In this document: piece after piece, positions 4,347 to 41,223 of the stretch
Position numbering within the stretch: position 1 is the stretch's first letter
Layout: each line of letters begins with the position of its first letter
Virus record (IMG/VR): IMGVR_UViG_3300033148_000846
Location: 1 to 47,975 of that record
Length of the DNA: 47,975 bases
Strand: one strand, 5' to 3'
Source: a virus
The notes under the pieces: model-generated
The model's input: the letters and a program-made list of their open reading frames with translations, nothing else
Database searches by the model: none
Told to the model about the DNA's origin: nothing
Position numbers and translations under genes: made by a program

Positions 4347-4829
4347 ATGTCAGGTTTTGAAGATAGTGCTGGTCTTAATGTAAAGAACCAGTACGGCCCC
4401 CGAGACACTGGTCGCGCCACTGGCGTGATTGGTACCCAAGGTGTTAAGACTCAGCTCGCAATCGAGTTGACTGGCGCTCAAATTGATGACGGTATTTACA
4501 TCGAGGATTTTGTTATCCCGCAGTATGCCATCATCACTGCTTGTTTCCTAGAGGTTACTGAAGCATTCGTCCTAGACGGTAATGCTGATAACACTCTTGA
4601 AGTGGGTACTAGCGGTTCGGAAGCTACTAACGGTTTCTCAATCACCTCCGCTCAATGTGAAGCACTTGGTGCTACCTCACTAACTGGTGCCCTCTCAGGT
4701 ACTTGGGATGCTGAAGCAGATCTTGCAGCAGCTACCACTGTTAGTGTTGTAGTCGCAGGTACTACTCCTTCTGTCGATACCACTGTTGGTAAAGGTCGGA
4801 TTGTAATTGAGTATGTTAAGGCCGCTTAG
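4347..4829 (+). CDS. Virion protein after the capsid gene, possible head decoration protein
   Basis: 160 residues starting at ATG 4347, preceded by AAGGAGA at 4334-4340; an in-frame start further upstream at 4269 would lie inside the capsid gene and has no such site. Beta-rich, acidic and low in cysteine, with many Thr, Gly and Ala residues (DNTLEVGTSGSEATN, AATTVSVVVAGTTP). A small beta-rich protein right after the capsid gene and before a terminator suggests a head decoration or capsid-associated protein (inference). It is the last gene before an intrinsic terminator and would share the strong expression of the capsid gene. Confidence 0.7.
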   Translation: MSGFEDSAGLNVKNQYGPRDTGRATGVIGTQGVKTQLAIELTGAQIDDGIYIEDFVIPQYAIITACFLEVTEAFVLDGNADNTLEVGTSGSEATNGFSITSAQCEALGATSLTGALSGTWDAEADLAAATTVSVVVAGTTPSVDTTVGKGRIVIEYVKAA

Positions 4830-4851
4830 TAGGTTCTAACAGCTAACTGAA

Positions 4852-4886
4852 GGCGGGACAGGAGAAATCCTCTCCTGCCTTTTTTA
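4852..4886 (+). terminator. Intrinsic terminator after the capsid module
   Basis: CAGGAGA (4859-4865), a 5-base loop and TCTCCTG (4871-4877) form a 7-base-pair stem, extended weakly by flanking GGC/GCC, and are followed by CC and a run of six T. It closes the scaffold-capsid unit and would attenuate transcription into the tail genes. Confidence 0.85.
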
Positions 4887-4904
4887 TTACCTAAAGGAAA
4901 GTAA

Positions 4905-5483
4905 ATGGCTATCGAACATGAAGATATTGATGACTCCAAGCTCCATGAGCCCAAAGGAGTCAAGAACGCTTTAGCAGGAACTATATACAGGGCAGACGGG
5001 GCGGGTGGTGGTGAATGGCAACATTCCAGTCTGAGTTGCCATGGACAGATGGAAATAGTTAACAATGCCACTGTTACTGCTGTTACTGCGGCAGTTGACG
5101 CTACCCTTAATACCGACACAGACTACTCGAAGATAGTTGCTGGATGGGGTAGTCCCCATGTCCACAATATAACCTTTGACACGGATAAGTTAACTGTCCT
5201 TATAGCGGGTCACTATGAACTCGCCTTTTGGTCAAGTTTTGAGGTACCCACCAATAACAACTTCGTTGGTATCAAGTTTAGTGTTAATGACTCTACCCCC
5301 TTTTCTCTACAGAAAATTGTAACTCAATCTGTAACCGCGAATGATTATAAGAATGTTTCTGGTCGCTCAGGTCTTGATTTGGGTGCTGGAGATACCCTCT
5401 CTGTTTATATGGCTGCAACCAAAACAGATAATATGGTTATAGAAGAAGCTGGTCTCTCTCTTATCCTACTGCATGAGGCTTAA
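4905..5483 (+). CDS. Probable virion protein with a C1q-like beta domain
   Basis: 192 residues, ATG with AAAGGAAA just upstream. The N-terminal 50 residues are polar; residues 90-190 form a run of beta strands (ITFDTDKLTVLIAGHYELAFWSSF, FVGIKFSVNDS, LGAGDTLSVYMAAT, LSLILLHEA) whose order and final L-x-L-x-L-L-H motif resemble jelly-roll domains of the C1q/TNF type often found in phage surface proteins. The fold is an inference from strand pattern only. It sits between capsid and tail tubular genes, so a head or connector surface role is likely. Confidence 0.65.
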   Translation: MAIEHEDIDDSKLHEPKGVKNALAGTIYRADGAGGGEWQHSSLSCHGQMEIVNNATVTAVTAAVDATLNTDTDYSKIVAGWGSPHVHNITFDTDKLTVLIAGHYELAFWSSFEVPTNNNFVGIKFSVNDSTPFSLQKIVTQSVTANDYKNVSGRSGLDLGAGDTLSVYMAATKTDNMVIEEAGLSLILLHEA

Positions 5484-5485
5484 TT

Positions 5486-6244
5486 ATGGCTAAGATGACT
5501 TTACTAGGAATCGTTCAAGACATTATGAACGACATGTCCTCTGACTTCGTTAATAGTATTGATGATACAGAAGAATCACAGATGATTGCCCAGATAGTGA
5601 AGAGCACATACTTTGCTATGATGAGTAATCGGAACTGGCCCCACCTAAGCAGGGCTGTAGCTCTCACTGCCTATTCTGATAACGAACTTCCAACCCACAT
5701 GAAGGTGGTGGAAGATATTAAAGAACTGCTGTTCCTTAACTACAATAAGGCTAAGGCCGGAGAGACAAGACTGAAGTATGGGAAGGTAGAGTGGAAAGAT
5801 CCCGATGTGTTCCTCTACCGCATAAACCAAGAGAACAACGATGCTGATAATGTAGACGTTATCCAAGATACCTCCGGTGTTCAGTTGTTAATCCGAAATG
5901 ATACAGCCCCATCCTACTACACATCTTTCGACGACACAACCTTAATCTTTGACTCTTATGATTCGGAGATAGATTCCTCACTTCAAGCAGGGAAGTTCCA
6001 AGCACAGGCCTATGTATTCCCTTCGTGGGCGCATGAGGACGAGGCAATTCCTGACCTCCCAGCAGAAGCTTTTATAGCGCTGCTTGAGGAAGCTAAGAGT
6101 AGGTCTTCTTTGAAGTTGAATAAAGAAGCAGACCAGAAGGCTGAACAAGAAGCTGGGAGACAGAACAGATGGCTCTCTCGAAAGGCTTGGCAAATAAAGG
6201 GTGGTATTAAATACCAAAACTACGGAAGAACACCTAGGAAATAA
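5486..6244 (+). CDS. Tail tubular protein A (gp11-like adaptor)
   Basis: 252 residues. In T7-like phages this protein forms the ring between portal and tail nozzle. The protein starts with a helical segment (MTLLGIVQDIMNDMSSDFVNSI), has the family's early Trp-Pro motif (NRNWPHLSR, about residues 50-58), and ends in a long charged helix (LNKEADQKAEQEAGRQNRWLSRK) typical of gp11. It lies immediately before the large tail tubular B gene, as in T7. Start ATG follows the previous stop directly (TAATT-ATG). Confidence 0.75.
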   Translation: MAKMTLLGIVQDIMNDMSSDFVNSIDDTEESQMIAQIVKSTYFAMMSNRNWPHLSRAVALTAYSDNELPTHMKVVEDIKELLFLNYNKAKAGETRLKYGKVEWKDPDVFLYRINQENNDADNVDVIQDTSGVQLLIRNDTAPSYYTSFDDTTLIFDSYDSEIDSSLQAGKFQAQAYVFPSWAHEDEAIPDLPAEAFIALLEEAKSRSSLKLNKEADQKAEQEAGRQNRWLSRKAWQIKGGIKYQNYGRTPRK

Positions 6245-22006: not shown

Positions 22007-23685
22007 GCCTTCTCCATTTCATTAAAGAGCCCAGTCTTGTAATCCCAGTAAAGAGGAACACGAGCAGTCGCTCCAAATTCTCGGTCTTCGAGGAGACATA
22101 TCGTTCTGATGTTCCTCTCCTCCAACGGTAACTCATCGTCTTTATTGCCTTCGATACCTATCATGTAGTTACAAGAACGCATCATAGCTCTACTACCAGC
22201 GAACTGTGTAGAGAATACCTTACCACCTCTCTCATGTGGCTCACCATTAGCGGGAGCTTTCAAGTGACAGAAGATGAAGATGATGATACCTAAGTCCATA
22301 GCCATAGCTGATAGGTCAGCAGCGATAGAGACAAGAGCTTCGTTAGCCTCTGCACTACCCATCTGGTTCGTTAGGTTAGTGATAGGGTCAATGATAACGA
22401 CCTTACACCCTTCAGCAGCAGCCTCGTAGATATCACCCTTCAAGGTTTCCCAACCAAGATGCTGGTAGAGGTTAACCATGATAGCCTTATCCCCGATGAG
22501 AGGTTCATACTTGTCGTAAGCCTCAAAGTCGAATGGGATGTTAGGGTCATGGAATATCTTACCAGCAGCCTTACCTACCAACATCTGATAGGTCTTGCGG
22601 TTAGCTTCCTCAGGTTTAGCCATGAATACTTTGAGGTCATGCTCTACCATGAAGTGTTCTGCAAGAGCGTTAACCACCTCACTCTTACCCATCTTGACAC
22701 CAGCACCAATATAGACTGTTTCTCCGAACCTAGCCCCTCTGGTAGCGTCTGTGAGTCCTTGCCAAGGATAGGACAACCCCCACTCAGCTTCCGTACGAGC
22801 TGCATCTTTAAGGGAGGAGCCATATACTAGCCGAGTGTTCTTTGGTTTAGTGGCATTGAATACGGTAGCATTGAAGCAAGCCTTACTCTTCCCCTCCATG
22901 AGACATGCGTTAGCATCTTTAGAGGGTAGCTCTGCAACCTTGAGAGAAGCATCAGTGTCCTTAATCTTATGGACAGAGTTCATCACTTCTTCAGCAGCAC
23001 GCTTACCTGGGTCATCCATATCAAAGACCAGTACTATCTCCTTAAACGTCTTAGAGATTTTAGGATATAGTCTAGCGATATCCTTAGCAGCACTAGCGGC
23101 ACCATGAGCAAGACTAACAACAGCCGGAGTATTCTTAGCATATTGAGTGTTGGCATTGTGGTCATTTAGGATTTGGAATAACGCTGCCGCATCCCATTCC
23201 CCCTCTGTTATGAATAAAGTTTTGTTACCTGTCTTAACAGCTTGACCCCAACCAAAGAGGTCTACGTCAGACATGTCACCAATACTCCACATCCTCTTAT
23301 TCTCTAAGAGCTTCACCTTACAACCAGACAGAGTACCTGCCTTACCATAAGGGAAGTAGGCAATGGAAGGGGTGATACCATCCTCACCCTTCACACCGAT
23401 ACGAACACCAAAGCGTTCCAGTGTTTCCTTCCGTAGTCTTCTCTCAGGCAACTCCATTACCTGACATTCTTTAGCTTCTTGTAGCTCTTGTTCAATCTCT
23501 TCAGGAGTTTTTTGAACTGGAGCAGGGGGCTTATACCCTTTAGGTTTATTCTTATATGGGTCAGGTTCATACTTCTTACAGCTATAGCAATAGCCATCGT
23601 ATGTCCCGTCTTCTTTCTCAAAGACTTGTAGCCCATCCCTTGTCCCACAGGAATGTGGGAGCTTCTCTATACATTTACCTGCCAT
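22003..23685 (-). CDS. DNA primase-helicase (T7 gp4-like)
   Basis: 560 residues, close to T7 gp4 (566). It primes lagging strands and unwinds DNA at the fork. Domains in order: an N-terminal zinc motif (C13 and C33-x2-C36 in GYCYSCKKY); a TOPRIM primase core with E161 (FITEGEWDAAAL) and D222-x-D224 (VFDMDDPGKRAAEEV); a RecA-like helicase with Walker A GAGVKMGKS (about 327-335) and Walker B KVVIID (about 428-433); and an H-motif region FCHLKAP. Start ATG 23685 lies inside the end of the exonuclease gene. Confidence 0.93.
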   Translation of the reverse strand: MAGKCIEKLPHSCGTRDGLQVFEKEDGTYDGYCYSCKKYEPDPYKNKPKGYKPPAPVQKTPEEIEQELQEAKECQVMELPERRLRKETLERFGVRIGVKGEDGITPSIAYFPYGKAGTLSGCKVKLLENKRMWSIGDMSDVDLFGWGQAVKTGNKTLFITEGEWDAAALFQILNDHNANTQYAKNTPAVVSLAHGAASAAKDIARLYPKISKTFKEIVLVFDMDDPGKRAAEEVMNSVHKIKDTDASLKVAELPSKDANACLMEGKSKACFNATVFNATKPKNTRLVYGSSLKDAARTEAEWGLSYPWQGLTDATRGARFGETVYIGAGVKMGKSEVVNALAEHFMVEHDLKVFMAKPEEANRKTYQMLVGKAAGKIFHDPNIPFDFEAYDKYEPLIGDKAIMVNLYQHLGWETLKGDIYEAAAEGCKVVIIDPITNLTNQMGSAEANEALVSIAADLSAMAMDLGIIIFIFCHLKAPANGEPHERGGKVFSTQFAGSRAMMRSCNYMIGIEGNKDDELPLEERNIRTICLLEDREFGATARVPLYWDYKTGLFNEMEKA

Positions 23686-24145
23686 CAGGTATCCTCCACA
23701 TTATAGGCTTCCCTTCCCCATCTACTTCTCTACACATCCATAAGAGCTGTCCCATCTCTAGGAGATAGGTTTCCCAATCATCTCCCATTACTTCTTTATA
23801 TAATTCAACACATGATTCAAACGCTTCTCTTTCTGTTGTAGCTTCTTGGAGAGCCACCCAAGCAGCCTTTGGGCCTTTCTTGGGGAGACCCGGAATATTA
23901 TCCACAGTATCTCCAGTGATAAGCTGACTATAGAAAAATAACATACCGGTACCAGTAATCTTATTCTTGTCACTGTTATACTCCAAGGTTCCGAATTCAT
24001 CTACCCATTGCTTAAAGAACTCAGGTTGTAGTCCATGTTCCCATCCGTAGTGCCATCCAGGAATCATTCGTAAGTCTTTATCACGAGTGCAGATTACTGT
24101 AGTGGCATTAACAGTACCCCACTCTTTCATCTGCTCAATACTCAT
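23675..24145 (-). pseudogene. 5'-3' exonuclease, C-terminal part (frame-disrupted gene)
   Basis: 156 residues from ATG 24145, but the same frame is open upstream and reads LHHEFAEADDAMSIEQ across 24178-24130, so the conserved EADD metal-binding motif of FEN/T7 gp6-type exonucleases sits before this ATG. The rest holds ICTRDKDLRMIPGWHYGW and the helix-hairpin region FYSQLITGDTVDNIPGLPKKGPKAA. The N-terminal part is in the other frame (24142-24456). Together they make one exonuclease that removes primers and degrades host DNA. As read, the gene is split by a frame change of -1 at about 24166-24178; an intact enzyme would need frameshifting or the break is recent or artefactual. Confidence 0.8.
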
Positions 24146-24456
24146 AGCATCATCAGCTTCCGCAAACTCATGATGTAGGCTCTCGCATTCTTATAGTGGA
24201 AGGGTTTAGGTTTGGTTCGGTTCCCTTTGTAAGGTTTAGTTACAGCAACCTCGTCTCGAAAGTTACCACCACCTGTCAAGTATAGGATAGGGGTTTCCGT
24301 ACCCCCTACCGCTAGACAGATGTCAGCGACAAGTTTATCAATCAGAGCTGCTACATAGTCAAAACTAAGGACAGTAACAGTACCGTCCTCCTCCTTTATC
24401 TCCCCACCAAAAGAACACTGGTAGGTAGCGATATCCATATCAATTAATGGTCGCAT
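24142..24456 (-). pseudogene. 5'-3' exonuclease, N-terminal part (frame-disrupted gene)
   Basis: 104 residues beginning MRPLIDMDIATYQCSFGG, with the first metal-binding Asp, followed by the family motif LYLTGGGNFRDEVAVTKPYKGNR (about residues 57-80) and KPFHYKNARAYIMS. Then the frame runs into a short out-of-frame tail (LRKLMML) and stops at 24144. A 13-base word at 24166-24178 encodes AYIMS in this frame and LHHE in the next, which is what a collapsed tandem duplication would leave. Overlaps the preceding gene's end by 17 bases. Confidence 0.8.
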
Positions 24457-24844
24457 TAGCAGCTTCCTTCACAACACTTTGTGTAACAGCGACGCTAAGA
24501 ACCTCCTCCAAGTTGTCTAACTGAGATTCGGGTAGGGTGATAGTAATATCCAGGAAGTTATCATCATCCTTATGTGCCTCTTCATCCCATGTATCGTCAA
24601 TCAAGAGATATGTCATGGTATCATGAAGGATACGGTAGTGTAATGTATGTGCCTTCTCAAATCTATCAGCATCTACTACTACTATCTGACCTGCAGCTTC
24701 TACAAACACACCAACATAATCCCCTTGACCTGGGATTACCATTACGTTGTTAGCTTGATACTTGACACCAGTTTGTAGACCAGTATCCTCAACACCCTCT
24801 ATGTTCATACAGAGGACATCTTCTCCCATTTTAATTTTAGTCAT
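24440..24844 (-). CDS. Hypothetical protein between RNA ligase and exonuclease
   Basis: 134 residues from ATG 24844, preceded by GGAGAG and overlapping the RNA ligase stop by 8 bases; a longer in-frame start at 24913 would lie inside the ligase gene. Beta-rich with two VxV strands (YVGVFVEAAGQIVVVDADRFEK) and an acidic C-terminal half (DDTWDEEAHKDDDNFLD). Unrecognised. Sharing overlaps with the ligase and exonuclease suggests a nucleic acid context. Confidence 0.65.
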   Translation of the reverse strand: MTKIKMGEDVLCMNIEGVEDTGLQTGVKYQANNVMVIPGQGDYVGVFVEAAGQIVVVDADRFEKAHTLHYRILHDTMTYLLIDDTWDEEAHKDDDNFLDITITLPESQLDNLEEVLSVAVTQSVVKEAANATIN

Positions 24845-25412
24845 CTCTCCACTTACCTTTTTGATTTGCGAATGTATGTTTCTCGTAACGTCTCGTTTTA
24901 TGGAAGAAGGCAATCACACCTTCTGGCCTCTCCCCCGTACCTTCTGAAGCTTTCTCTAAATCTAAAAGAGCATCTCTTATGCAGAACTCTGTGTACTTAC
25001 CGACATAAAGGGTAGGAACCACCTGACAACATTCAGGTGTGTTTGGATTATGGCTCCCCCATCTGTAGGAATTAAAGAGATAGAATTCCATCTCCTCCAA
25101 GCAACGAGGGTTTTTCTGAACAGAAGGCCCAGCCCACTCACCATAATGATAACCATCACCAAGAGAGAGGAGGTCTTCTGTATTTTCCATAACCCACAGA
25201 GCAAAGCCCGCGTTATCACTTCCCTTCTCTCCACTTAGTATTGAAGGAGAAATCTTTCTCTTACGAGACTGAACACTGACAATTTCACCATCTGCAATTA
25301 CAATACAGGCATTGCTACCATCAATCTTTTCCGTAATCGTTATTGTTTCGTGTTGACCTCTTGGTATTTTAGGCCACTCCTCAAAAGCAACGTCGTCTCT
25401 CAGCTTAAACAT
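24837..25412 (-). CDS. RNA ligase (Rnl2-like nucleotidyltransferase)
   Basis: 191 residues, just the nucleotidyltransferase domain. Motif I with the AMP-accepting lysine is K29-I-D-G-S-N; motif III Y90-G-E-W; motif IIIa EFYLFNSY (109-116); motif IV E164-G-V-I; motif V lysines K172/K178 near the end. Shorter than T4 Rnl2 (334), because a separate C-terminal domain is missing. Likely repairs or seals RNA nicks, for example tRNAs cut by host defence (known for T4 Rnl1 system; inference here). ATG has AGGAGG 6 bases upstream. Confidence 0.85.
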   Translation of the reverse strand: MFKLRDDVAFEEWPKIPRGQHETITITEKIDGSNACIVIADGEIVSVQSRKRKISPSILSGEKGSDNAGFALWVMENTEDLLSLGDGYHYGEWAGPSVQKNPRCLEEMEFYLFNSYRWGSHNPNTPECCQVVPTLYVGKYTEFCIRDALLDLEKASEGTGERPEGVIAFFHKTRRYEKHTFANQKGKWRDD

Positions 25413-28277: not shown

Positions 28278-28447
28278 TATGCTTCATCACCTCCTGCTGG
28301 GAAGAATGCGTTTAAGTTGTTAGTGGCTTGTTCTACATCTTTGTAGTACTGTTTACAGGTGTACCCATCCACATACAAAGGGTGGTCTCTCTCCTCCATT
28401 TGTGTTAGCTCCAGATACTTATCTAAGTAGTCTGTAAATGTGTGCAT
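28277..28447 (-). CDS. Small hypothetical protein between sigma factor and DNA polymerase
   Basis: 56 residues, too short for standard listing but strongly supported: its ATG overlaps the sigma factor stop (TGATG), a GAGGAGGGAG run lies upstream, and its TAA overlaps the polymerase ATG (TAATG). Acidic, with a DYLDKYLEL start and a VDGYTCKQYYKDVEQATNNLN centre. Unrecognised; probably couples sigma and polymerase translation. Confidence 0.65.
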   Translation of the reverse strand: MHTFTDYLDKYLELTQMEERDHPLYVDGYTCKQYYKDVEQATNNLNAFFPAGGDEA

Positions 28448-28935
28448 CACTCATCTCCCTCCTCTCCATACTTATCCTTCATACCAGCCCTGAACTCCTC
28501 AACAAAATATCTAGCGTTACGAATAGATGAATCCGTAATCAACTCAATATCCTGATAGGAATACCCAAGATTGAAGAAGAGGTGTATAACATTACGTCTC
28601 TCATCATTCTCAATAGCTTGGATATCCTCTTGGATATGATCCGTCAAGTCCTTGAGGTCATGAGTGTCCTCTACAGGAATCTCAGCATCTGGGTCAGCTT
28701 CAATATGCTTCATGAACTTCTCACGTTGATAAGTCCGTACCGAGTTATTAAGGATAGTATTGAACCATGCCCCTAGCTCACGCTTCTCTGGGTCAAAGCT
28801 CTTCCAGTATTCTACAGCCTTACGGAAGGCATCCATTACAATGTCCTCCGCATCATCAGGGTGTCGTACCCTAAAGTTAGCTCTCTTTACCAGTGTATCA
28901 TATTCCTCTGCAAAGAAATGTCTCAGTTCTTTCAT
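28447..28935 (-). CDS. ECF-like RNA polymerase sigma factor
   Basis: 162 residues with only regions 2 and 4. Region 2: HPDDAEDIVMDAFRKAVEYWKSFDPEKRELGAWFNTILNNSVRTYQRE (about residues 24-74), matching the core-binding and -10 recognition helices. Region 4: NDERRNVIHLFFNLGYSYQDIELITDSSIRNARYFVEEFRAGM (about 110-152), a helix-turn-helix for -35 recognition. The product would redirect host RNA polymerase to phage promoters, as phiEco32 gp36 does (established for that phage). Start ATG with GGAGGAGGAAG upstream; it overlaps the 51-residue gene before it (ATGA). Confidence 0.85.
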   Translation of the reverse strand: MKELRHFFAEEYDTLVKRANFRVRHPDDAEDIVMDAFRKAVEYWKSFDPEKRELGAWFNTILNNSVRTYQREKFMKHIEADPDAEIPVEDTHDLKDLTDHIQEDIQAIENDERRNVIHLFFNLGYSYQDIELITDSSIRNARYFVEEFRAGMKDKYGEEGDE

Positions 28936-29151: not shown

Positions 29152-30222
29152 TCAGTCCTCTCCTTTTTCAGCCTTTCTTTCACCGTCCAGCACCCTTACC
29201 ATTGCTTCAAAATCAAGTTCGCGGAGTGGAGGTACGGGGGGTGGCGCTGGAGCTACGAATCCCATCTCTATTTCTGCTCGGCGAAGGTCGCGGGGTGCTG
29301 GCACCTTACCTTGGTGGTCACGGTGTTTCACATCTGCGGGGTGTCCCCATACTGCTTCATGGCCTTCGGGAAAAACGAGTGCAGGTTCCTCTTCCTTTTT
29401 AACAACCTTTTTCTTCCCATCCTTTGGATACATATCCCAATCCACCAAGTAAGCGATGTCTTGAACTCGTCTCGCACCATCCAGAATCTTTCGGCTACGT
29501 CCAAGACCTTTAAAGAAAGAGCGATGATGCTTCCCTAACATATCTTTGCTAAAGACCTTAGGTTCCTTTTCTGAGAGTGCTGCGATAATCTCCATAGGAT
29601 TCTTGAAAGTCTTAGCTGCCTCCCGAAGAGAGAGAAGGGTTGATGTCCACTTCATAATCCTCTCTTCATCGAGAGTTCCTTCGAGAGAGCGTAGCTCCAC
29701 CGTACCATACTTGTTTAGAGACGCTAAGTTAATAGCGGAGTATCTCACCTGATTCTCTAGATACCCTCTCTCTTTCTCTCTTGCGAATGCAAGGAAAGAT
29801 ACTAACAAACCTTCAGCATCTTTTGATTGAAGGCAGAAGAGGTTACCATCTCGGTCGTCACCACACCAGCCTACTAAAAGTTCCTCGAAGATAAAGAGGA
29901 GGGTTAGGAAATTGAATAGCTCAATCATTTCCAGTCCAGTACAATTTATATGGACATGTGTAGAAGTTCTCCGGCTCATGTCTACAACAGAACCATGTTC
30001 CTTCAAGCATCCATTCAACTCTTCAAGAGCTATCTTCAAACCCTTGATTTCTACAGGTCGGCGTAAGACATATTCTACATTGTCCTCCCCTCTGAGAGAC
30101 CCATCATGTTCCAGATGCCAGTAGTCTAAATGACCTTTGAAGAGATGCTTTCCCTCCACCTCAATCTCTACGCCTACATCTTCCTTTACAGGAACCGTAT
30201 TAAAAAATCGTTGTACCTTCAT
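29152..30222 (-). CDS. Amidoligase (amidoligase_2-type COOH-NH2 ligase)
   Basis: 356 residues. The glutamine-synthetase-like amidoligase fold joins a carboxylate to an amine using ATP. Visible: V-G-V-E19-I-E21-V-E (Mg-binding strand), HLEHDGSLRG (about 36-45), EYVLRRP (50-56), HVHINC (89-94) and Y-G-T-V-E175-L-R-S-L-E-G (about 172-182), the characteristic order of this family. The C-terminal part is Lys/Pro-rich (PAPPPVPPLRE). First-described in bacteria and phages by Iyer, Aravind and colleagues. Overlaps the next gene upstream by 4 bases (ATGA) in a dense amide-forming cassette. Confidence 0.85.
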   Translation of the reverse strand: MKVQRFFNTVPVKEDVGVEIEVEGKHLFKGHLDYWHLEHDGSLRGEDNVEYVLRRPVEIKGLKIALEELNGCLKEHGSVVDMSRRTSTHVHINCTGLEMIELFNFLTLLFIFEELLVGWCGDDRDGNLFCLQSKDAEGLLVSFLAFAREKERGYLENQVRYSAINLASLNKYGTVELRSLEGTLDEERIMKWTSTLLSLREAAKTFKNPMEIIAALSEKEPKVFSKDMLGKHHRSFFKGLGRSRKILDGARRVQDIAYLVDWDMYPKDGKKKVVKKEEEPALVFPEGHEAVWGHPADVKHRDHQGKVPAPRDLRRAEIEMGFVAPAPPPVPPLRELDFEAMVRVLDGERKAEKGED

Positions 30223-30776
30223 GCCATCACCTCTTCCACGTATTTATCCATATAAGAATACTTGTCATACAACTCAAGAGTATTCCCATCAAAAGAACCT
30301 ATGCGCTCACCCCTATACTCCAAAAATCTACCGCCATTTCTCATGGCTATCTGAAAGTTTCTGTGGAAGATACCACCCTCTTTAAAGGCTTGCTTGAAGG
30401 TCTTAAAGCGACCTTGGATGGTATTAGCTAAAGAGAGACGTTCTCCTCTGGAGCCAAAAGAGATTCTCCTTGCGGCACCACCTGAGACTCCTACACTCTC
30501 GGGGTGCAACCCTTGCTTCCATCTTCTACGGGGAATCCTGAAGTGGAAATGAATATCCCCACGAACATCCACACCATAACCTAGAGGTACTGGCTTGAAG
30601 TTGAGGAGGGGGTCGTTGATAGCTATGTTCTCTCTCTTCTCTGTTCTTAAATAAGAGACCTCAAGAGTAACACTCTTCCTATTAACATAACAACCGTGGA
30701 CTAGGATAGGCTTCTTCCCATAACGTATCACAGAACCATCTAGGTACCGTCTTGCGTCTTCAACATTGTCATACAT
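30219..30776 (-). CDS. Unknown partner protein inside the amidoligase cassette
   Basis: 185 residues, no recognised domain. Basic and beta-rich in the N-terminal half (ILVHGCYVNRKSVTLEVSYLRTEKREN), Gly/Arg-rich in the middle (SGGAARRISFGSRGERLSLAN). It is translationally locked between the two amidoligases (8-base overlap upstream, 4-base downstream), which argues for a shared role such as carrying, binding or presenting the substrate. Confidence 0.7.
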   Translation of the reverse strand: MYDNVEDARRYLDGSVIRYGKKPILVHGCYVNRKSVTLEVSYLRTEKRENIAINDPLLNFKPVPLGYGVDVRGDIHFHFRIPRRRWKQGLHPESVGVSGGAARRISFGSRGERLSLANTIQGRFKTFKQAFKEGGIFHRNFQIAMRNGGRFLEYRGERIGSFDGNTLELYDKYSYMDKYVEEVMA

Positions 30777-31560
30777 TTGGCACCTCCAATTTAGCTTTCT
30801 TGATGATACCGAGGGCTGCCTCTACGTTAGAGGTGTTAATAATCTCTTGTATGTCTCCAAATTCTTTCTGAAGAACAACCCCATCAAGGAGGTCAGTAGC
30901 AGCTCTCTTGGAAGCTCGGAAGGCCCATGCCATCAGCTCCTTAGATTGCAACCAACGGTTACTGAGGACACGATACTCCACCCCATAAGGCTTGATACGA
31001 TGAGCCCCAGCCTTCCCATATAGCTCTCGACGCTTGGTATCAGGGTCTAACAAAAGGGAGGGAAGTCCAAGGTAGAAGTCCATTTGACGTACCAAAGCCT
31101 TAGCTTTCATTGAATGACCAACATCAAGGATGTCTTGGTCTTCTGTCCAGCCTACATGGATATGCCCAGAACCTGTACGAAAGCTCACTTTAGCATCCGG
31201 TATATCGTTCTGCTTACCTGACCATGCGTTGAAGTCTGGGTCACACCCTAGCTCTGTCGCCTTAGCCGGTTGGTTCTCCATATATGCCTCAGAGAAAGTT
31301 GCAACAGGTTCTGCTACAAGGTCATACTCAGGCACCATAGCCTTCAGTTGTGTGAGTACAGCATCAAGATTGAAGACAAAACCTTCCTCATCCATAGCTG
31401 GGTCAATATTAAATTCAAGGGCCATGCCATCGACCTGTACAGCACCGTGTTCGACAGGGAAGGGGTTTTCTTTATCTCCCTCAATCAAACCATAGCCTGA
31501 CTTGAACTCTCCATCCTGAGCTACAAATAACTCAGGGTCTGCTCCAAATTTAAAATTCAT
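30769..31560 (-). CDS. phiEco32-type COOH-NH2 ligase (second amidoligase)
   Basis: 263 residues. The N-terminal FGADPELFV (residues 5-13), E-H-G-A-V-Q-V-D-G-M-A-L-E (about 36-48), GHIHVGW (131-137) and GVEYRVLSN (192-200) are hallmarks of the phage COOH-NH2 ligase family first seen in phiEco32-like phages. Being a different amidoligase subfamily from the neighbour at 29152, it points to two distinct amide bonds being formed. Start ATG overlaps the amidotransferase stop (ATGA). Confidence 0.87.
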   Translation of the reverse strand: MNFKFGADPELFVAQDGEFKSGYGLIEGDKENPFPVEHGAVQVDGMALEFNIDPAMDEEGFVFNLDAVLTQLKAMVPEYDLVAEPVATFSEAYMENQPAKATELGCDPDFNAWSGKQNDIPDAKVSFRTGSGHIHVGWTEDQDILDVGHSMKAKALVRQMDFYLGLPSLLLDPDTKRRELYGKAGAHRIKPYGVEYRVLSNRWLQSKELMAWAFRASKRAATDLLDGVVLQKEFGDIQEIINTSNVEAALGIIKKAKLEVPNV

Positions 31561-32846
31561 AGCCCACCTCCTGTACTAAGGTAATCCTCAACCATAGGGA
31601 TAGTTTTACAATCCTCACAAAGGAATTCGTCTTCGTTTATGAAGAGATTTTTCTCTGTTGCAACCACGGGACTTGCGCACCAACAGCATCCTTTAGCTGT
31701 TGCTTTTTTCCATTCAGCTTTGTTAAGATCTTTGCCATCATAGCCTTGAAAGGTGGCATCCTCGTCCTCCTCCCCCTCCTTAAAGTCAAGCTCTAACACC
31801 TCTTCCTCTGAAGGTTCGTCGAAGATACCGATACTATCAGAGATACCCACGATATACTTAGGTATCGTACTGCTGTCAGCGTAGTGAGAGAGCCTTACTG
31901 TTACAAATTTCTCTGCTCCTCTCGCAGTCTCTAGTGCAAGGAAGACTCGATTATCAAGCACTCGTACCTCAATGTCGAGATTACCAACTACGATATCCTC
32001 AAGAGGCAGTAGCTTGATATAATCCCTACCGTAGTGACCACCTTGTACTGTATCCCCTATCTGGCATTCAATCTCTTTCCCCAGATATTTATCAAGCTCA
32101 CCTAGCTTTCTTTTAGTTGAGATTCTGCTCACATTAGTCGCAGGAGCTGGTTTGTAATGCTTCAACGTACGGATAGAGGGAGCTGCTACTTGCTTACCAA
32201 CATCAGGTATCTTGAAAGTGAATAAGGAATGCTCACCTACAGGGTAGATTTTCTCTCGTGCTATATGGTTGCGGTCAAGAATCCAATCCAACATCTTCCA
32301 CTCACTCGCATAGTAGACATTCTTTTTATCCTTACTGAAGCAGTAATGGAGGGGTCGCTCAGAATTCCGAAGGAAACTGATAGTCTGCTCTTTGGCATTA
32401 TGCCACACCAGAGCATAGGCTCCGTTAAGTTTCTCAACAGTCTCCTCAACACCAATCTTATCGAAGGCATAGTAGATATTCTCACTATCCACCGTGAAGT
32501 CGGCATGGTCTGGGAGGAGATATTGACCCCTTAGTGTGCCGTTATGCACCCCTGAGAAGTCCCCATAGCTAAAGGGGTGGGCGTTGGTAGTATTAACCTT
32601 ACCCTTAGTCGCCCAACGATTGTGAGCAATAACAGCTTTAGCGTTGAGGTACTGTTGCGTCTTCTCAAACTCTAAGAAGTCAGGGCCAGTTACGGCCTTC
32701 TTAAAGATACGGGCTTGGTTCTGATAACCTACAGATACCATACCAGTACTATCGGATCCCCGAAAGGTATCTGCATAGATAAGCTGTTGCAGCACTTCCT
32801 TCTGAGGTTTATTTAAATCACCAATGACACCTACGATTCCACACAT
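31557..32846 (-). CDS. Class II glutamine amidotransferase with C-terminal zinc motif
   Basis: 429 residues. The Ntn-type glutaminase releases ammonia from glutamine: nucleophile C2 (MCGIVGVIG), FRGSDSTG (28-35), HNRWATKG (75-82), NAHPF (88-92) and HNG (101-103), matching the PurF/AsnB glutaminase. Residues 240-380 are not the PurF or AsnB synthetase domain, so its partner enzyme must be separate, probably the amidoligases or ATP-grasp beside it. The C-terminus has CCWC (about 389-392) and LCEDC (about 412-416), a likely zinc ribbon. Ends in TTGGGL. One-base overlap with the ATP-grasp gene. Confidence 0.88.
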   Translation of the reverse strand: MCGIVGVIGDLNKPQKEVLQQLIYADTFRGSDSTGMVSVGYQNQARIFKKAVTGPDFLEFEKTQQYLNAKAVIAHNRWATKGKVNTTNAHPFSYGDFSGVHNGTLRGQYLLPDHADFTVDSENIYYAFDKIGVEETVEKLNGAYALVWHNAKEQTISFLRNSERPLHYCFSKDKKNVYYASEWKMLDWILDRNHIAREKIYPVGEHSLFTFKIPDVGKQVAAPSIRTLKHYKPAPATNVSRISTKRKLGELDKYLGKEIECQIGDTVQGGHYGRDYIKLLPLEDIVVGNLDIEVRVLDNRVFLALETARGAEKFVTVRLSHYADSSTIPKYIVGISDSIGIFDEPSEEEVLELDFKEGEEDEDATFQGYDGKDLNKAEWKKATAKGCCWCASPVVATEKNLFINEDEFLCEDCKTIPMVEDYLSTGGGL

Positions 32847-33688
32847 TACGCTGCCTCCTTCATCTTAGCTTTCTCTGTGATAGCTGGATGAATAAATTTC
32901 AGATACCCACCACGCTCATCTACCAGAGGGATACGTTCCTTACCATTCTCTACGATATAATCGAGAGCCTTAGCCATACATTCCTGACGGTATGGGCTGG
33001 TGAGGGAGGGTGCAGAGTTAATCTCAAGGATAGTAGCATTGCCTTCAGCGTCCAACATAACGTCTACGCCGCCGAAGTCTAGCTCTGACAGATTGAAACC
33101 CTCAATAGCAACACGTACAGCCTTGAGAGGCCAAGCATCCCATCGTACATTATCAAAGCGACCACCCTTAGCCACGTTCCATGCAATAGCATCGGGATTG
33201 TCAGGAGTCTTCTGAGCTACACATACAGCTCGACCCTGCACTACGAACACACGATACTCAGCCACCTTCTTGATGTACTTGGAGATATAGTATCCCTCTC
33301 CACATTTAAGGGCAGCGGCGGCAATCTGTTGTGTTGTATTGCAGAGATAAACATGACGACCTTGTGCATGTTTAGCAGGTCGCACGATAACACCACCCTC
33401 AGGTATTACAAAACCGATAGCATCCTTATGGAACCATGTCTCAGGACATAGCTCATGCTTCTCTAATACCTTACGGAAACCTACCTTATCATTCACCCCA
33501 TGAATAGCCTTAGCGGTGTTCAAGACATTCTTGGCCGGTACATTTGAGGTACATCCCCAACGAATATACAGGTTATCATCTGGTAGGGGTTTATCATTAC
33601 GAACCCAACCAATACCAGTCTTACTGAACTGGGCAATGCCTTTACAGCTAGACATCCCTAGCTTACGTCGTCGAATAATTGTAGCCAT
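32846..33688 (-). CDS. ATP-grasp ligase (RimK-like)
   Basis: 280 residues. ATP-grasp enzymes form amide bonds via an acyl-phosphate. The lysine-bearing strand GGVIVRPAKHAQGR (about residues 98-111) binds ATP; EYRVFVV follows; the Mg-binding end is FGGVDVMLDAEGNATILEINSAPSLTSP (about 220-247) with its D-x-M and E-I-N triad. Similar proteins accompany amidoligases in phiEco32-like phages. A possible C-to-N peptide ligase in this cassette; the substrate is unknown. Short gap (1 base) to the next gene upstream. Confidence 0.88.
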   Translation of the reverse strand: MATIIRRRKLGMSSCKGIAQFSKTGIGWVRNDKPLPDDNLYIRWGCTSNVPAKNVLNTAKAIHGVNDKVGFRKVLEKHELCPETWFHKDAIGFVIPEGGVIVRPAKHAQGRHVYLCNTTQQIAAAALKCGEGYYISKYIKKVAEYRVFVVQGRAVCVAQKTPDNPDAIAWNVAKGGRFDNVRWDAWPLKAVRVAIEGFNLSELDFGGVDVMLDAEGNATILEINSAPSLTSPYRQECMAKALDYIVENGKERIPLVDERGGYLKFIHPAITEKAKMKEAA

Positions 33689-33689
33689 T

Positions 33690-33881
33690 TCACTTACCCC
33701 TTTCTGCGTTTAAGATAGCAACTAAGTTACGAATTGGTGGGTATTCCCACCCAGAGAGTCTGTAGATAACCTTGCCGTCTCTCTGAAGAGAGAATGTATT
33801 ACGAGAGGGGCTAACAGCAGAGGCAATTTTTTCCCTAAGAGTGCGTTTTTCAGCGACCTCATAAGTATAGCCTTTTTCCAT
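33690..33881 (-). CDS. Small hypothetical protein in the amidoligase cassette
   Basis: 63 residues, basic, with TFSLQRDGKVIYRLSGWEYPPIRNLVAILN in the second half. ATG 33881 has a strong AGGAGG 7 bases upstream from leader module copy 2. No family recognised. Could be a small peptide substrate or a regulator, both unproven. Confidence 0.6.
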   Translation of the reverse strand: MEKGYTYEVAEKRTLREKIASAVSPSRNTFSLQRDGKVIYRLSGWEYPPIRNLVAILNAERGK

Positions 33882-33887
33882 TTCACA

Positions 33888-33939
33888 CCTCCTAAATTTT
33901 TACAGGTAAATTGGTAGCACTAGCACCCTCTTTTAGAGG
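33888..33939 (-). promoter_or_regulatory. Repeated 5'-leader module, copy 2
   Basis: On the minus strand: hairpin CCTCT-AAA-AGAGG (33939-33927, containing the stop codon of the upstream gene), GTGCTAGTGCTACC, AATTTACCTGTAAAAATTT and AGGAGG (33893-33888). Same architecture as copies at 29144, 36495 and 38030. Confidence 0.55.
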
Positions 33940-34562
33940 ATAAGCTCCAGACACTCGAAGTAATAATCAGCACATTCCCGATAGTCCTCGGAATGAGCAA
34001 CAAACTCAGGGTGAGGTTGGAAGCATAGGCATTTAGTAAAGTCATACAACACAGCCTCTACGTCATTCTCCAGAGTACCATCCACCTTGCGGATAGTCTT
34101 CCCCAACATGTGTTCCTTGAAGGTAGAGCGATGAGCAATAGTCAACACCTCAGCCTCCTCATGAGGGCGCATCATCTGGTGGTGTGTGCTGCTTACCCGC
34201 ACTTCCTTACCAGAACGTACATCAGTAGCTGCATGTGTACCACCAATACCGTGTCGGTTTACATGTTGATACATCCTACCGCCATTAATAACATTAAGGA
34301 ATTGACCACCACGACAGATACCAGCCTGAGGAATACCCAGCTCATAAGCAATCATGTGTAGGTCAGCTTCCCTACGGTCTTGTTGAAGGTTACACCCAGT
34401 AGCAGGATGCTTCTCTTCTCCGTAATATTCGGGGGATACATCAGCACCCCCTGTAAATTGAATGAGGTCAGCCTCATGGATATCCTCCACAACTTGCCAG
34501 CCATACATTTGGAACATCTGACTGTATGCCCCACCACCACCAATAATCACTACCTTTTTCAT
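33933..34562 (-). CDS. Class I glutamine amidotransferase / peptidase C26-like enzyme
   Basis: 209 residues with the alpha/beta triad fold: FTGGADVSPEYYGE (about 36-49), nucleophile elbow AGIC83RGGQFLN, and H184-P-E186 (FQPHPEF). These match gamma-glutamyl-gamma-aminobutyrate hydrolase (C26)/PuuD-like and GATase1 proteins, which hydrolyse gamma-glutamyl amides or supply ammonia. In this cassette it may trim or deglutamylate the product, or feed ammonia to a ligase. ATG overlaps the upstream gene's stop (ATGA). Confidence 0.85.
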   Translation of the reverse strand: MKKVVIIGGGGAYSQMFQMYGWQVVEDIHEADLIQFTGGADVSPEYYGEEKHPATGCNLQQDRREADLHMIAYELGIPQAGICRGGQFLNVINGGRMYQHVNRHGIGGTHAATDVRSGKEVRVSSTHHQMMRPHEEAEVLTIAHRSTFKEHMLGKTIRKVDGTLENDVEAVLYDFTKCLCFQPHPEFVAHSEDYRECADYYFECLELIL

Positions 34563-35692
34563 TTGTATGCTCCTGCGTCTTGTAGTCTCTTATGCACCTT
34601 GCTCCAATACGACCCACCCCCTACCATATTCCTCCATTGAGGTGTCCTACTCCACAAGATACATCTCATAATGGTACATCTTTCGGGGGTTCTCCACCCT
34701 TCATACCCAGCGGCATAAACATCCACACCGCCTGCAATGATCTCTCGTAGCTGTTTACGGATAAGACGTACCTCAGCTAGGGTGAAGCCATTTGCTTGCG
34801 AGATGAGGCCAATGAGGGCGTGTTCCTTGTGATTAGGAGCCTTCTTAACAGGCTTCTTCCTTGGCTTCTTAATACCCATAAGGATAGGGTATTGCTTCTT
34901 CAACCACTCAGCAAACGGTTTGAGGGTGGTATCCCAACGCTCCGTATAGACCTCCCCCCATTCTCGTACCACCTTCTTGTGTTTAGGTGTATATTCCTTT
35001 AAGAAATCCTCTGTTTGAATATCCCTCCAGAGGCCATGTATTTTTCGGTACGTCATTATGTCGTGATAGTTATCAAGGGCACCTGGCATCTTTCTCTTTA
35101 AGAAATTCTGAAGCTCACTGGTGTAGAGAGTAGACCCATTAAAAGCCCGATGACCTCCGTGTTGCTGGTTGTAAGTAATCTTCTTAGCACCACCCATGGT
35201 ATGAGCCACGAGAAGGGCCATATCCTCATTTACCCCTAAATCTACCAATTTCTTCCAGAAACGAGGGACATCCGTATACTCCCAAAGGGTACGCATTATC
35301 GTAAGACCACTAACGAGGAAGTTGGCAGACACCTTTGTAGTGCAAAGAGCGCCATATTCAATGATATGATCTACGTCCTTGATAAGGAAGATGTCTTTAT
35401 ACGGGCTTCTCTCTACCAAATAACTAAGAAAAGCTTTACGAGTATCAGGTACCACCTTCTTCCATTTTGGATGATCTGTTTGTACAGAATTTATGATATA
35501 GAGAGGGGATCCGTCTATGCGCATCCTACTAAGAGGGGCGTAGCAGGCTGCCATCTCATGCGGATACTCTATTAACGCTCCCTCCCCACGTTTCGAGAGT
35601 ACCATAAAAGAATTCGTATAATGCTTTTCCCCTTTAATGGAATTAGAGAATTCTATTTGCTTATTAACAGCGTAGAGTAGGTCATCGCTCAT
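34559..35692 (-). CDS. Unknown 377-residue protein of the amidoligase cassette
   Basis: ATG 35692 has GGAGG 6 bases upstream; a longer in-frame start at 35758 would extend through the 70-residue gene before it and lacks a site. No recognised domain; contains an N-terminal alpha/beta stretch (SFMVLSKRGEGALIEYPHEMAACYAP), an HTMGGAKKITYNQQHGGHRAFNGST segment (about residues 191-215) rich in His and Asn, and a basic KKPRKKPVKKAPNHK linker (about 298-312). Overlaps the C26-like gene by 4 bases, so it is co-translated with the cassette. It could be the enzyme or scaffold defining the product. Confidence 0.7.
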   Translation of the reverse strand: MSDDLLYAVNKQIEFSNSIKGEKHYTNSFMVLSKRGEGALIEYPHEMAACYAPLSRMRIDGSPLYIINSVQTDHPKWKKVVPDTRKAFLSYLVERSPYKDIFLIKDVDHIIEYGALCTTKVSANFLVSGLTIMRTLWEYTDVPRFWKKLVDLGVNEDMALLVAHTMGGAKKITYNQQHGGHRAFNGSTLYTSELQNFLKRKMPGALDNYHDIMTYRKIHGLWRDIQTEDFLKEYTPKHKKVVREWGEVYTERWDTTLKPFAEWLKKQYPILMGIKKPRKKPVKKAPNHKEHALIGLISQANGFTLAEVRLIRKQLREIIAGGVDVYAAGYEGWRTPERCTIMRCILWSRTPQWRNMVGGGSYWSKVHKRLQDAGAYK

Positions 35693-36274: not shown

Positions 36275-36437
36275 AATCAATCTCCTCTAAGTCCATTATG
36301 ATACCTATTGCTTTATTGAGTTCGGGGTACGTAGCAGCAAATTCCTCGCTTGCTTTTTCATTCAAGAAAGCCACACCATGTTCCAAGTCTCCCTGTAGTG
36401 CAAAAGACAGTAGATCTTGTATGTCGTCGAGGCTCAT
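36258..36437 (-). CDS. Small acidic hypothetical protein, 59 residues
   Basis: ATG 36437 with GAGGAG 8 bases upstream, supplied by leader module copy 3; a GTG at 36446 is a weaker alternative. Helical, acidic (SLDDIQDLLSFALQGDLEHG, ending in DLEEIDYEDMH). Unrecognised. It is the first gene after tRNA-Arg. Confidence 0.6.
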   Translation of the reverse strand: MSLDDIQDLLSFALQGDLEHGVAFLNEKASEEFAATYPELNKAIGIIMDLEEIDYEDMH

Positions 36438-36445
36438 ACTCAACA

Positions 36446-36495
36446 CTCCTCATAAATTTTGTAGGGAAACTAGCGACACTAGCACCTTCTTTCTT
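36446..36495 (-). promoter_or_regulatory. Repeated 5'-leader module, copy 3
   Basis: On the minus strand: TTC-AAGAAA-GAAGG (weak hairpin), TGCTAGTGTCGCTAG, TTTCCCTACAAAATTT, then GAGGAG. It follows the tRNA-Arg 3' end within a few bases and is the most diverged of the four copies in its hairpin. Confidence 0.45.
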
Positions 36496-36499
36496 GAAT

Positions 36500-36576
36500 T
36501 GGTGTCCTTGGAGGGACTCGAACCCCCAGCCGACGGAGTAGAAATCCGTTGCGCTATCCAGTTGCGCCACAAGGAC
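36500..36576 (-). tRNA. tRNA-Arg (anticodon UCU)
   Basis: 77 bases with encoded CCA. Acceptor stem GTCCTTG/CAAGGAC pairs fully; D-stem GCGC/GCGC; anticodon stem ACGGA/TCCGT with loop TTTCTAC, anticodon TCT; T-arm around GGGGGTTCGAGTCCCTC; discriminator A. It reads AGA and AGG, codons that are rare in many gammaproteobacteria but common in this phage's structural genes. Confidence 0.93.
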
Positions 36577-36583
36577 ATATTGT

Positions 36584-36733
36584 TTACACTTCAGGTAAAG
36601 GCTCATACCTCTCAAGCACACACTCATACTCCAGATAATACAAGGCTTCCACCGTATATATCTTGTAGAGGTAGAATGAACAGAAGAATAGGGATGCAGC
36701 CATAAGCCACACCCCCATAGCTAAGGCTTTCAC
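36584..36733 (-). CDS. 49-residue membrane miniprotein next to tRNA-Arg
   Basis: GTG 36733 overlaps the preceding stop (GTGA) and has AGGAGA 6 bases upstream. The N-terminal 25 residues form one hydrophobic segment (LAMGVWLMAASLFFCSFYLYK), followed by a Tyr/Glu-rich tail (VEALYYLEYECVLERYEPLPEV). A small single-pass membrane protein, missed by length cut-offs. The stop lies 7 bases before the tRNA 5' end. Function unknown, possibly early host membrane modification. Confidence 0.6.
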   Translation of the reverse strand: MKALAMGVWLMAASLFFCSFYLYKIYTVEALYYLEYECVLERYEPLPEV

Positions 36734-41147: not shown

Positions 41148-41223
41148 GCCAGTATAGCTCAGATGATAGAGCACCTCTTTTGTAGTGAGGATGTCAGGGG
41201 TTTGAATCCTCTTACTGGCTCCA
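41148..41223 (+). tRNA. tRNA-Thr (anticodon UGU)
   Basis: 76 bases with encoded CCA. Acceptor stem GCCAGTA/TACTGGC pairs fully; D-stem GCTC/GAGC; anticodon stem CCTCT/TGAGG with one T-T mismatch at its loop end; loop TTTGTAG with anticodon TGT; T-arm AGGGG/CCTCT with one wobble. It reads ACA. Other tRNAs were not found. Unpaired stem position makes it slightly less canonical. Confidence 0.85.

Follow-up and report, generated by a model that had tools for sequence, protein, structure and literature searches.

A set of seven genes named the 'peptidoglycan modification cassette' was described in the Pseudoalteromonas phages HP1 and RIO-1, and PMC5498523 (citing Hardies 2013) also lists it for PA11, CW02, LUZ24, PaP3, tf, phiEco32 and 7-11. 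The gene order of the LUZ24-like version has been tabulated (PMC3890496), and the idea of a cell-wall modification that prevents superinfection is repeated in PMC10580990. Here we analysed a single DNA stretch of 47,975 bases, the IMG/VR virus record IMGVR_UViG_3300033148_000846 (hereafter the window), which carries such a set at 29152-35692. Like the published cassette, it has two amidoligases, an ATP-grasp ligase and an amidotransferase in an operon, a predicted gamma-glutamyl-cleaving enzyme and a placement among replication and transcription genes; as the cassette was published earlier, the window copy is a further example of a known set and not a new system. What is new here is the replacement of one gamma-glutamyl enzyme, a C26 protein, by another, the gamma-glutamyl cyclotransferase (GGCT), and the presence of the small protein U185 as a core component. 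We consider it about 60% probable that the cassette provides a ligation pathway in the cytosol, driven by ATP and glutamine, which passes through a gamma-glutamyl intermediate and is active in mid-infection. This figure covers a gamma-glutamyl ligation pathway in general, and the cell-wall, metabolite and protein explanations weighed below are mostly alternatives within it.

Enzymes were assigned by Pfam and PHROG searches with matches above curated cut-offs. The first cassette gene (34559-35692) encodes U377, a protein of 377 residues that matches only PHROGs of unknown function and whose start at 35692 is preceded by a good Shine-Dalgarno site. It is followed by a predicted C26 (PuuD-type) gamma-glutamyl hydrolase of class I amidotransferase fold (33933-34562; Peptidase_C26, 2.2e-18), a RimK/R2K-like ATP-grasp ligase (32846-33688; RimK/R2K ATP-grasp, 4.2e-10) and GATII, a class II (Ntn, Cys2) glutamine amidotransferase with a C-terminal CxxC...CxxC zinc ribbon (31557-32846; GATase_6, 3.4e-16). 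Then come two glutamine synthetase-like (GS-like) ligases, the phiEco32-type COOH-NH2 ligase (COOH, 30769-31560; PF14395, 6.4e-10; phrog_3815, 3.2e-87) and Amidoligase_2 (AL2, 29152-30222; PF12224, 6.6e-10; phrog_7469, 2.4e-70), which flank U185 (30219-30776), again with matches only to PHROGs of unknown function. An open reading frame (ORF) of 63 residues with a strong ribosome-binding site and no family match (33690-33881) separates C26 from the ATP-grasp and is an uncertain member. Five junctions overlap, with 4-nt ATGA-type overlaps at U377/C26, GATII/COOH and U185/AL2 and overlaps of 1 nt and 8 nt at the others. All lie on the minus strand, and the seven genes named in a preliminary description of the window were confirmed at these positions.

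To place the window among its relatives we scanned IMG/VR with a COOH-ligase alignment, which gave at least 544 encoding stretches; 80 loci were kept and joined to ten annotated cultured phages and the window itself (n=91). Profile searches found COOH, U185 and GATII in all 91 loci, Amidoligase_2 in 90, the ATP-grasp in 88, C26 in 78, U377 in 68 and GGCT in 12. The joint presence of COOH, U185 and GATII in 91/91 loci, 80 of them gathered by the COOH ligase alone, is far beyond chance. Amidoligase_2 or the ATP-grasp is missing from a few loci because contig ends cut them off, and where at least 6 kb was available on each side the five core genes (COOH, U185, Amidoligase_2, GATII and the ATP-grasp) were all present on a single strand (52/52 loci), bearing out the expectation that the genes are conserved together. 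COOH, U185 and AL2 are consecutive in 89 of 90 loci. Cultured carriers comprise Zobellviridae, Bruynoghevirus, Grimontviridae, Lahexavirus, kuravirus-type and phiM6-type phages.

A clue to the chemistry comes from the C26 position. Either C26 or GGCT lay inside the locus in 51 of the 52 well-flanked loci, the exception being Salmonella phage 7-11; a gamma-glutamyl enzyme was predicted elsewhere in that genome and a GGCT was found there, giving 52/52 genomes. Eight further cultured phages all had GGCT, and the records that showed neither enzyme are those whose contig ends near the cassette. The genomes of PaP3, a kuravirus, 7-11, 4_4572, L082, 1.208.B and HSd1 carry GGCT and no C26 match. In 1.208.B and HSd1 the GGCT gene takes the place between U377 and GATII that in most relatives belongs to C26. 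GGCT was not found in the window, nor in PA11, which has C26. The two folds are unrelated but both cleave gamma-glutamyl bonds, and their replacement of one another suggests, from gene content, that a gamma-glutamyl amide occurs in the cassette pathway. Since GGCT substitutes for it, C26 is better read as a gamma-glutamyl hydrolase than as an ammonia enzyme. The C26 protein scores 67.3 bits against Pfam C26 (cut-off 20.5) and far lower against the generic GATase; its nearest solved structures are C26-type proteins, and its NCBIfam PuuD match is weak. The preliminary description had counted two enzymes handling ammonia or gamma-glutamyl groups; an ammonia role is still the predicted one for GATII, and for the second enzyme gives way to a likelier gamma-glutamyl hydrolase.

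The catalytic residues are intact. Conservation was assessed in alignments of 78-96 relatives per family, after a first look on 11 sequences, and the loss of catalytic residues that would have spoken against an enzymatic cassette was not seen, the residues being near-invariant. The C26 triad (C83, H184, E186) is invariant in 78/78, as is the HHQ motif. In Amidoligase_2 the residues G17-x-E19-x-E21-x-E23, H89, H91, N165, E176 and R178 are invariant, and in the GS-like ligases the ExE/H/E/R residues are invariant or nearly so. The GATII signature residues are likewise invariant or nearly so in the alignment, and the zinc ribbon noted earlier as an extra is real but common to the whole family. 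The ATP-grasp conserves D209, E222 and N224, with the E/N pair invariant or nearly so. The window ATP-grasp belongs to a minority clade placed upstream of GATII, together with loci L067 and L084. Some loci (L015, L018, L019, L025, L036, L045, L084 and others) have an ATP-grasp gene upstream of GATII and a second one downstream of Amidoligase_2, and on a tree these genes group largely by position.

In the pathway that we propose, the class II amidotransferase would release ammonia from glutamine, and the two GS-like ligases and the RimK-like ATP-grasp would form a series of amide or peptide bonds; judging by family chemistry, one or more of these would be a gamma-glutamyl amide. C26 would then cleave the gamma-glutamyl bond as PuuD and gamma-glutamyl hydrolases do, a predicted reaction next to an observed replacement, and in other phages the unrelated GGCT would carry out this step. 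U185 would serve as a recognition or scaffold subunit, and the pathway would operate in the middle of infection, a timing taken from PaP3 homologues. Intact active sites and the obligate co-occurrence of the genes speak for the multi-step amide or peptide chemistry envisaged at the outset, with the correction that there are three ATP-dependent ligases and not two. The acceptor is more likely a small peptide or precursor, for example a peptidoglycan precursor as published, than bulk phage DNA.

Several points weigh against this proposal. C26-fold proteins may also serve as ammonia-supplying glutaminases. C26 and GGCT occur together in phiM6, RHph and CW02, so that the two need not perform an identical step. 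The cassette of the Stenotrophomonas phage StenR_269 (L102) has no detected COOH ligase and the set is not perfectly universal, and most of our loci were gathered by their similarity to one ligase, with Zobellviridae-like contigs predominating among them. The literature that we found on the cassette reports no experimental test of its function, reaction or product. As a separate observation, a nearby 335-residue ORF of StenR_269 (4686-5693) is annotated 'L-glutamine synthetase', without an NCBIfam match.

The pairing of a GS-like ligase with a C26 hydrolase mirrors PuuA and PuuD, and one could imagine, with some doubt, a small-metabolite pathway in which the GS-like ligase gamma-glutamylates a host amine such as a polyamine or amino acid and C26 or GGCT frees the product, serving nutrient use or blunting a host signal. 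The PuuD match and the C26-type nearest structures mentioned above are in accordance with such a route, and the GGCT substitution is compatible with removal of a gamma-glutamyl group. However, the cassette showed neither an oxidase nor a dehydrogenase of the Puu route, and no NCBIfam match ties the GS-like ligases to PuuA.

The predicted structure of U185 has a mean pLDDT of 95, and its N-terminal part weakly resembles Tudor/KOW/EF-P-like (SH3-like) barrels (best Z 5.4). Strong conservation in U185 is limited to the invariant G66 and the near-invariant R80, R84 and G89, which makes it probable, judged from sequence and model, that U185 is a subunit for recognition or scaffolding and not the acceptor. 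A LysW-like carrier or acceptor role was considered for U185 and for the GATII zinc ribbon and set aside, as the C-termini are variable and no acceptor residue of U185 is invariant. The barrel is of the kind found in RNA-polymerase- or ribosome-associated proteins, the best NCBIfam scores of the ATP-grasp are to RimK-family alpha-L-glutamate ligases, and R2K ATP-grasps have earlier been proposed to modify host proteins. These observations would fit a protein modification in which the ATP-grasp and the amidoligases tag a host or phage protein with glutamate or amino acids under the guidance of U185. We regard this as unlikely: the structural matches of U185 are weak (Z about 5), and U185 does not look like the acceptor itself, since none of its Lys, Glu, Asp, Ser or Cys residues is invariant and its C-terminus is not conserved.

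U377 has invariant C50, R134 and E138 and a near-invariant H181. In 7-11, vB_CsaP_009 and PJNS034, too, a relative precedes the COOH ligase, and in the phiM6 module a relative has another position. A single-sequence scan with U377 gave no matches, and the upstream genes PaP3 ORF49/50 and kuravirus 054/055 had no detectable relationship to it by profile. Its structural model has a modest pLDDT of 75 and gave no fold match that convinces, the deaminase/ADF-like ones being weak (Z up to 3.7) and set aside. It is tempting to speculate, though we hold it to be doubtful, that the cassette makes a novel gamma-glutamyl-protected amide or peptide with which many unrelated podoviruses switch off or reshape a conserved component of the host; U185 would then be a new targeting subunit of the Tudor/KOW-like kind, and U377 would represent a new enzyme family.

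Immediately downstream of the cassette lie the sigma factor, PolA and primase-helicase genes, a replication and transcription neighbourhood. In PaP3 the cassette lies within ORF42-48, which belong to the middle genes and are expressed alongside replication genes, and mass spectrometry of SU10 preparations picked up the ATP-grasp, amidotransferase and GGCT-like proteins. This co-location and co-expression would suit a hypermodification that puts amino-acid or amide groups on the bases of the phage DNA, an explanation to which we give very little credence. The enzymes RsaI, HpaI, EcoRV, SmaI and HaeIII cut the DNA of phage tf, which bears the cassette, and BamHI cuts that of Delta; no base-modification enzyme was recognised among the proteins scanned. 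The cutting of tf DNA by five common restriction enzymes disfavours wholesale modification and narrows the targets named in the preliminary description (protein, DNA, surface polymer, small metabolite) at the expense of bulk DNA.

The C26, GATII and COOH families show no conspicuous signal peptide or membrane-like segment. The cassette proteins look cytosolic, and the cytosol is where peptidoglycan precursors are made. According to the published hypothesis, the ligases would add unusual side-chain linkages to these precursors and the hydrolase would trim them, altering the surface against superinfection. The name given in PMC5498523 and the superinfection-blocking idea cited in PMC10580990 speak for it, as do the Gram-negative hosts of the listed cultured carriers. 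Stem peptides hold gamma-D-Glu bonds that gamma-glutamyl enzymes could address, but known GGCT and PuuD enzymes act on L-gamma-glutamyl groups; moreover, nothing in the cassette resembled a Mur ligase or a membrane or export component, and close relatives manage without it. We view the peptidoglycan explanation as possible but tentative. The relatives in question are the Vibrio phages 1.264.O and PS32B.1, in which none of the eight cassette profiles had a match, although portal, capsid, primase and PolA are shared; absent as a whole block, the cassette behaves as an accessory unit. In relatives without it (L117, L118) coiled-coil and transmembrane-helix proteins are encoded beside the primase, between primase and early genes, possibly as an alternative accessory module.

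Its genes make the window virus a podovirus of the Zobellviridae type, and it has a sigma factor of its own. Its major capsid protein is nearest to those of Zobellviridae Vibrio phages, with 73% identity to 1.264.O and PS32B.1, and portal, primase and PolA are 59%, 53% and 48% identical to those of 1.264.O. It encodes PolA, a primase-helicase, a ribonucleotide reductase and a sigma-70 region-2 protein, the last (28447-28935, minus strand, by family searches) 3' of the cassette. This sigma factor argues against a T7-type RNA polymerase strategy, and together with the capsid protein it leaves the earlier label 'T7-like' without support; PF00940, the T7 RNA polymerase family, had no match in the record, though the control genomes were likewise silent. 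Among the replication genes are an RNA_ligase-family protein (PF09414, 8.1e-13; 24837-25412, minus strand) and two adjoining ORFs with a 4-nt overlap (23675-24456, minus strand) that match the phrog_107 exonuclease at profile positions 123-214 and 242-365, which suggests a split gene or frameshift. The record also has a tRNA-Arg(TCT) at 36500-36576 (minus strand), overlapped by a probably spurious plus-strand ORF (36298-36705), and a tRNA-Thr(TGT) at 41148-41223 (plus strand). A bacterial origin of the cassette was considered and rejected, as a genome-contig scan gave only 12 loci, all on contigs of metagenome-assembled genomes and mostly phage-like full or partial cassettes. In one of these contigs (L115, Geobacteraceae, 4774 bases) a COOH-ligase relative adjoins C26 and GGCT matches and the remainder is absent, an arrangement that is possibly reduced or bacterial. 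A defence-system explanation was dropped, as PADLOC matched none of the cassette proteins.

A COOH-NH2 ligase of the cassette type is found in more than 300 records of cultured phages, among them coliphages and candidates for Pseudomonas therapy. The finding that C26 and GGCT replace each other in a single slot of the operon limits the chemistry to a directly assayable kind, and natural presence and absence among close relatives provide ready comparisons. With regard to known systems, the bacterial PuuA-PuuD polyamine route offers a functional likeness only, that of a GS-fold ligase and a C26 gamma-glutamyl hydrolase; the window cassette lacks PuuB/PuuC-type enzymes, uses other ligase families and has an additional ATP-grasp and GATII, and is not a Puu member. 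The phiEco32/kuravirus and LUZ24-like (Bruynoghevirus) cassettes share COOH, U185, Amidoligase_2, GATII and the ATP-grasp in a conserved order, but have GGCT instead of C26, no recognisable U377, and GATII after Amidoligase_2. The RIO-1/PSA-HP1 cassette shares the two amidoligases, the ATP-grasp, the glutamine amidotransferase and the replication/transcription placement; the window differs from it by C26 in the place of GGCT, by an upstream minority-clade ATP-grasp and by U377. The Pa11virus (Paundecimvirus) phages PA11, TC6 and O4 carry the same set as the window, in the order U377-C26-GATII-COOH-U185-AL2-ATP-grasp, with about 50% identity to the window in C26 and about 55% in COOH; the ATP-grasp lies downstream of Amidoligase_2 in PA11 and upstream of GATII in the window.

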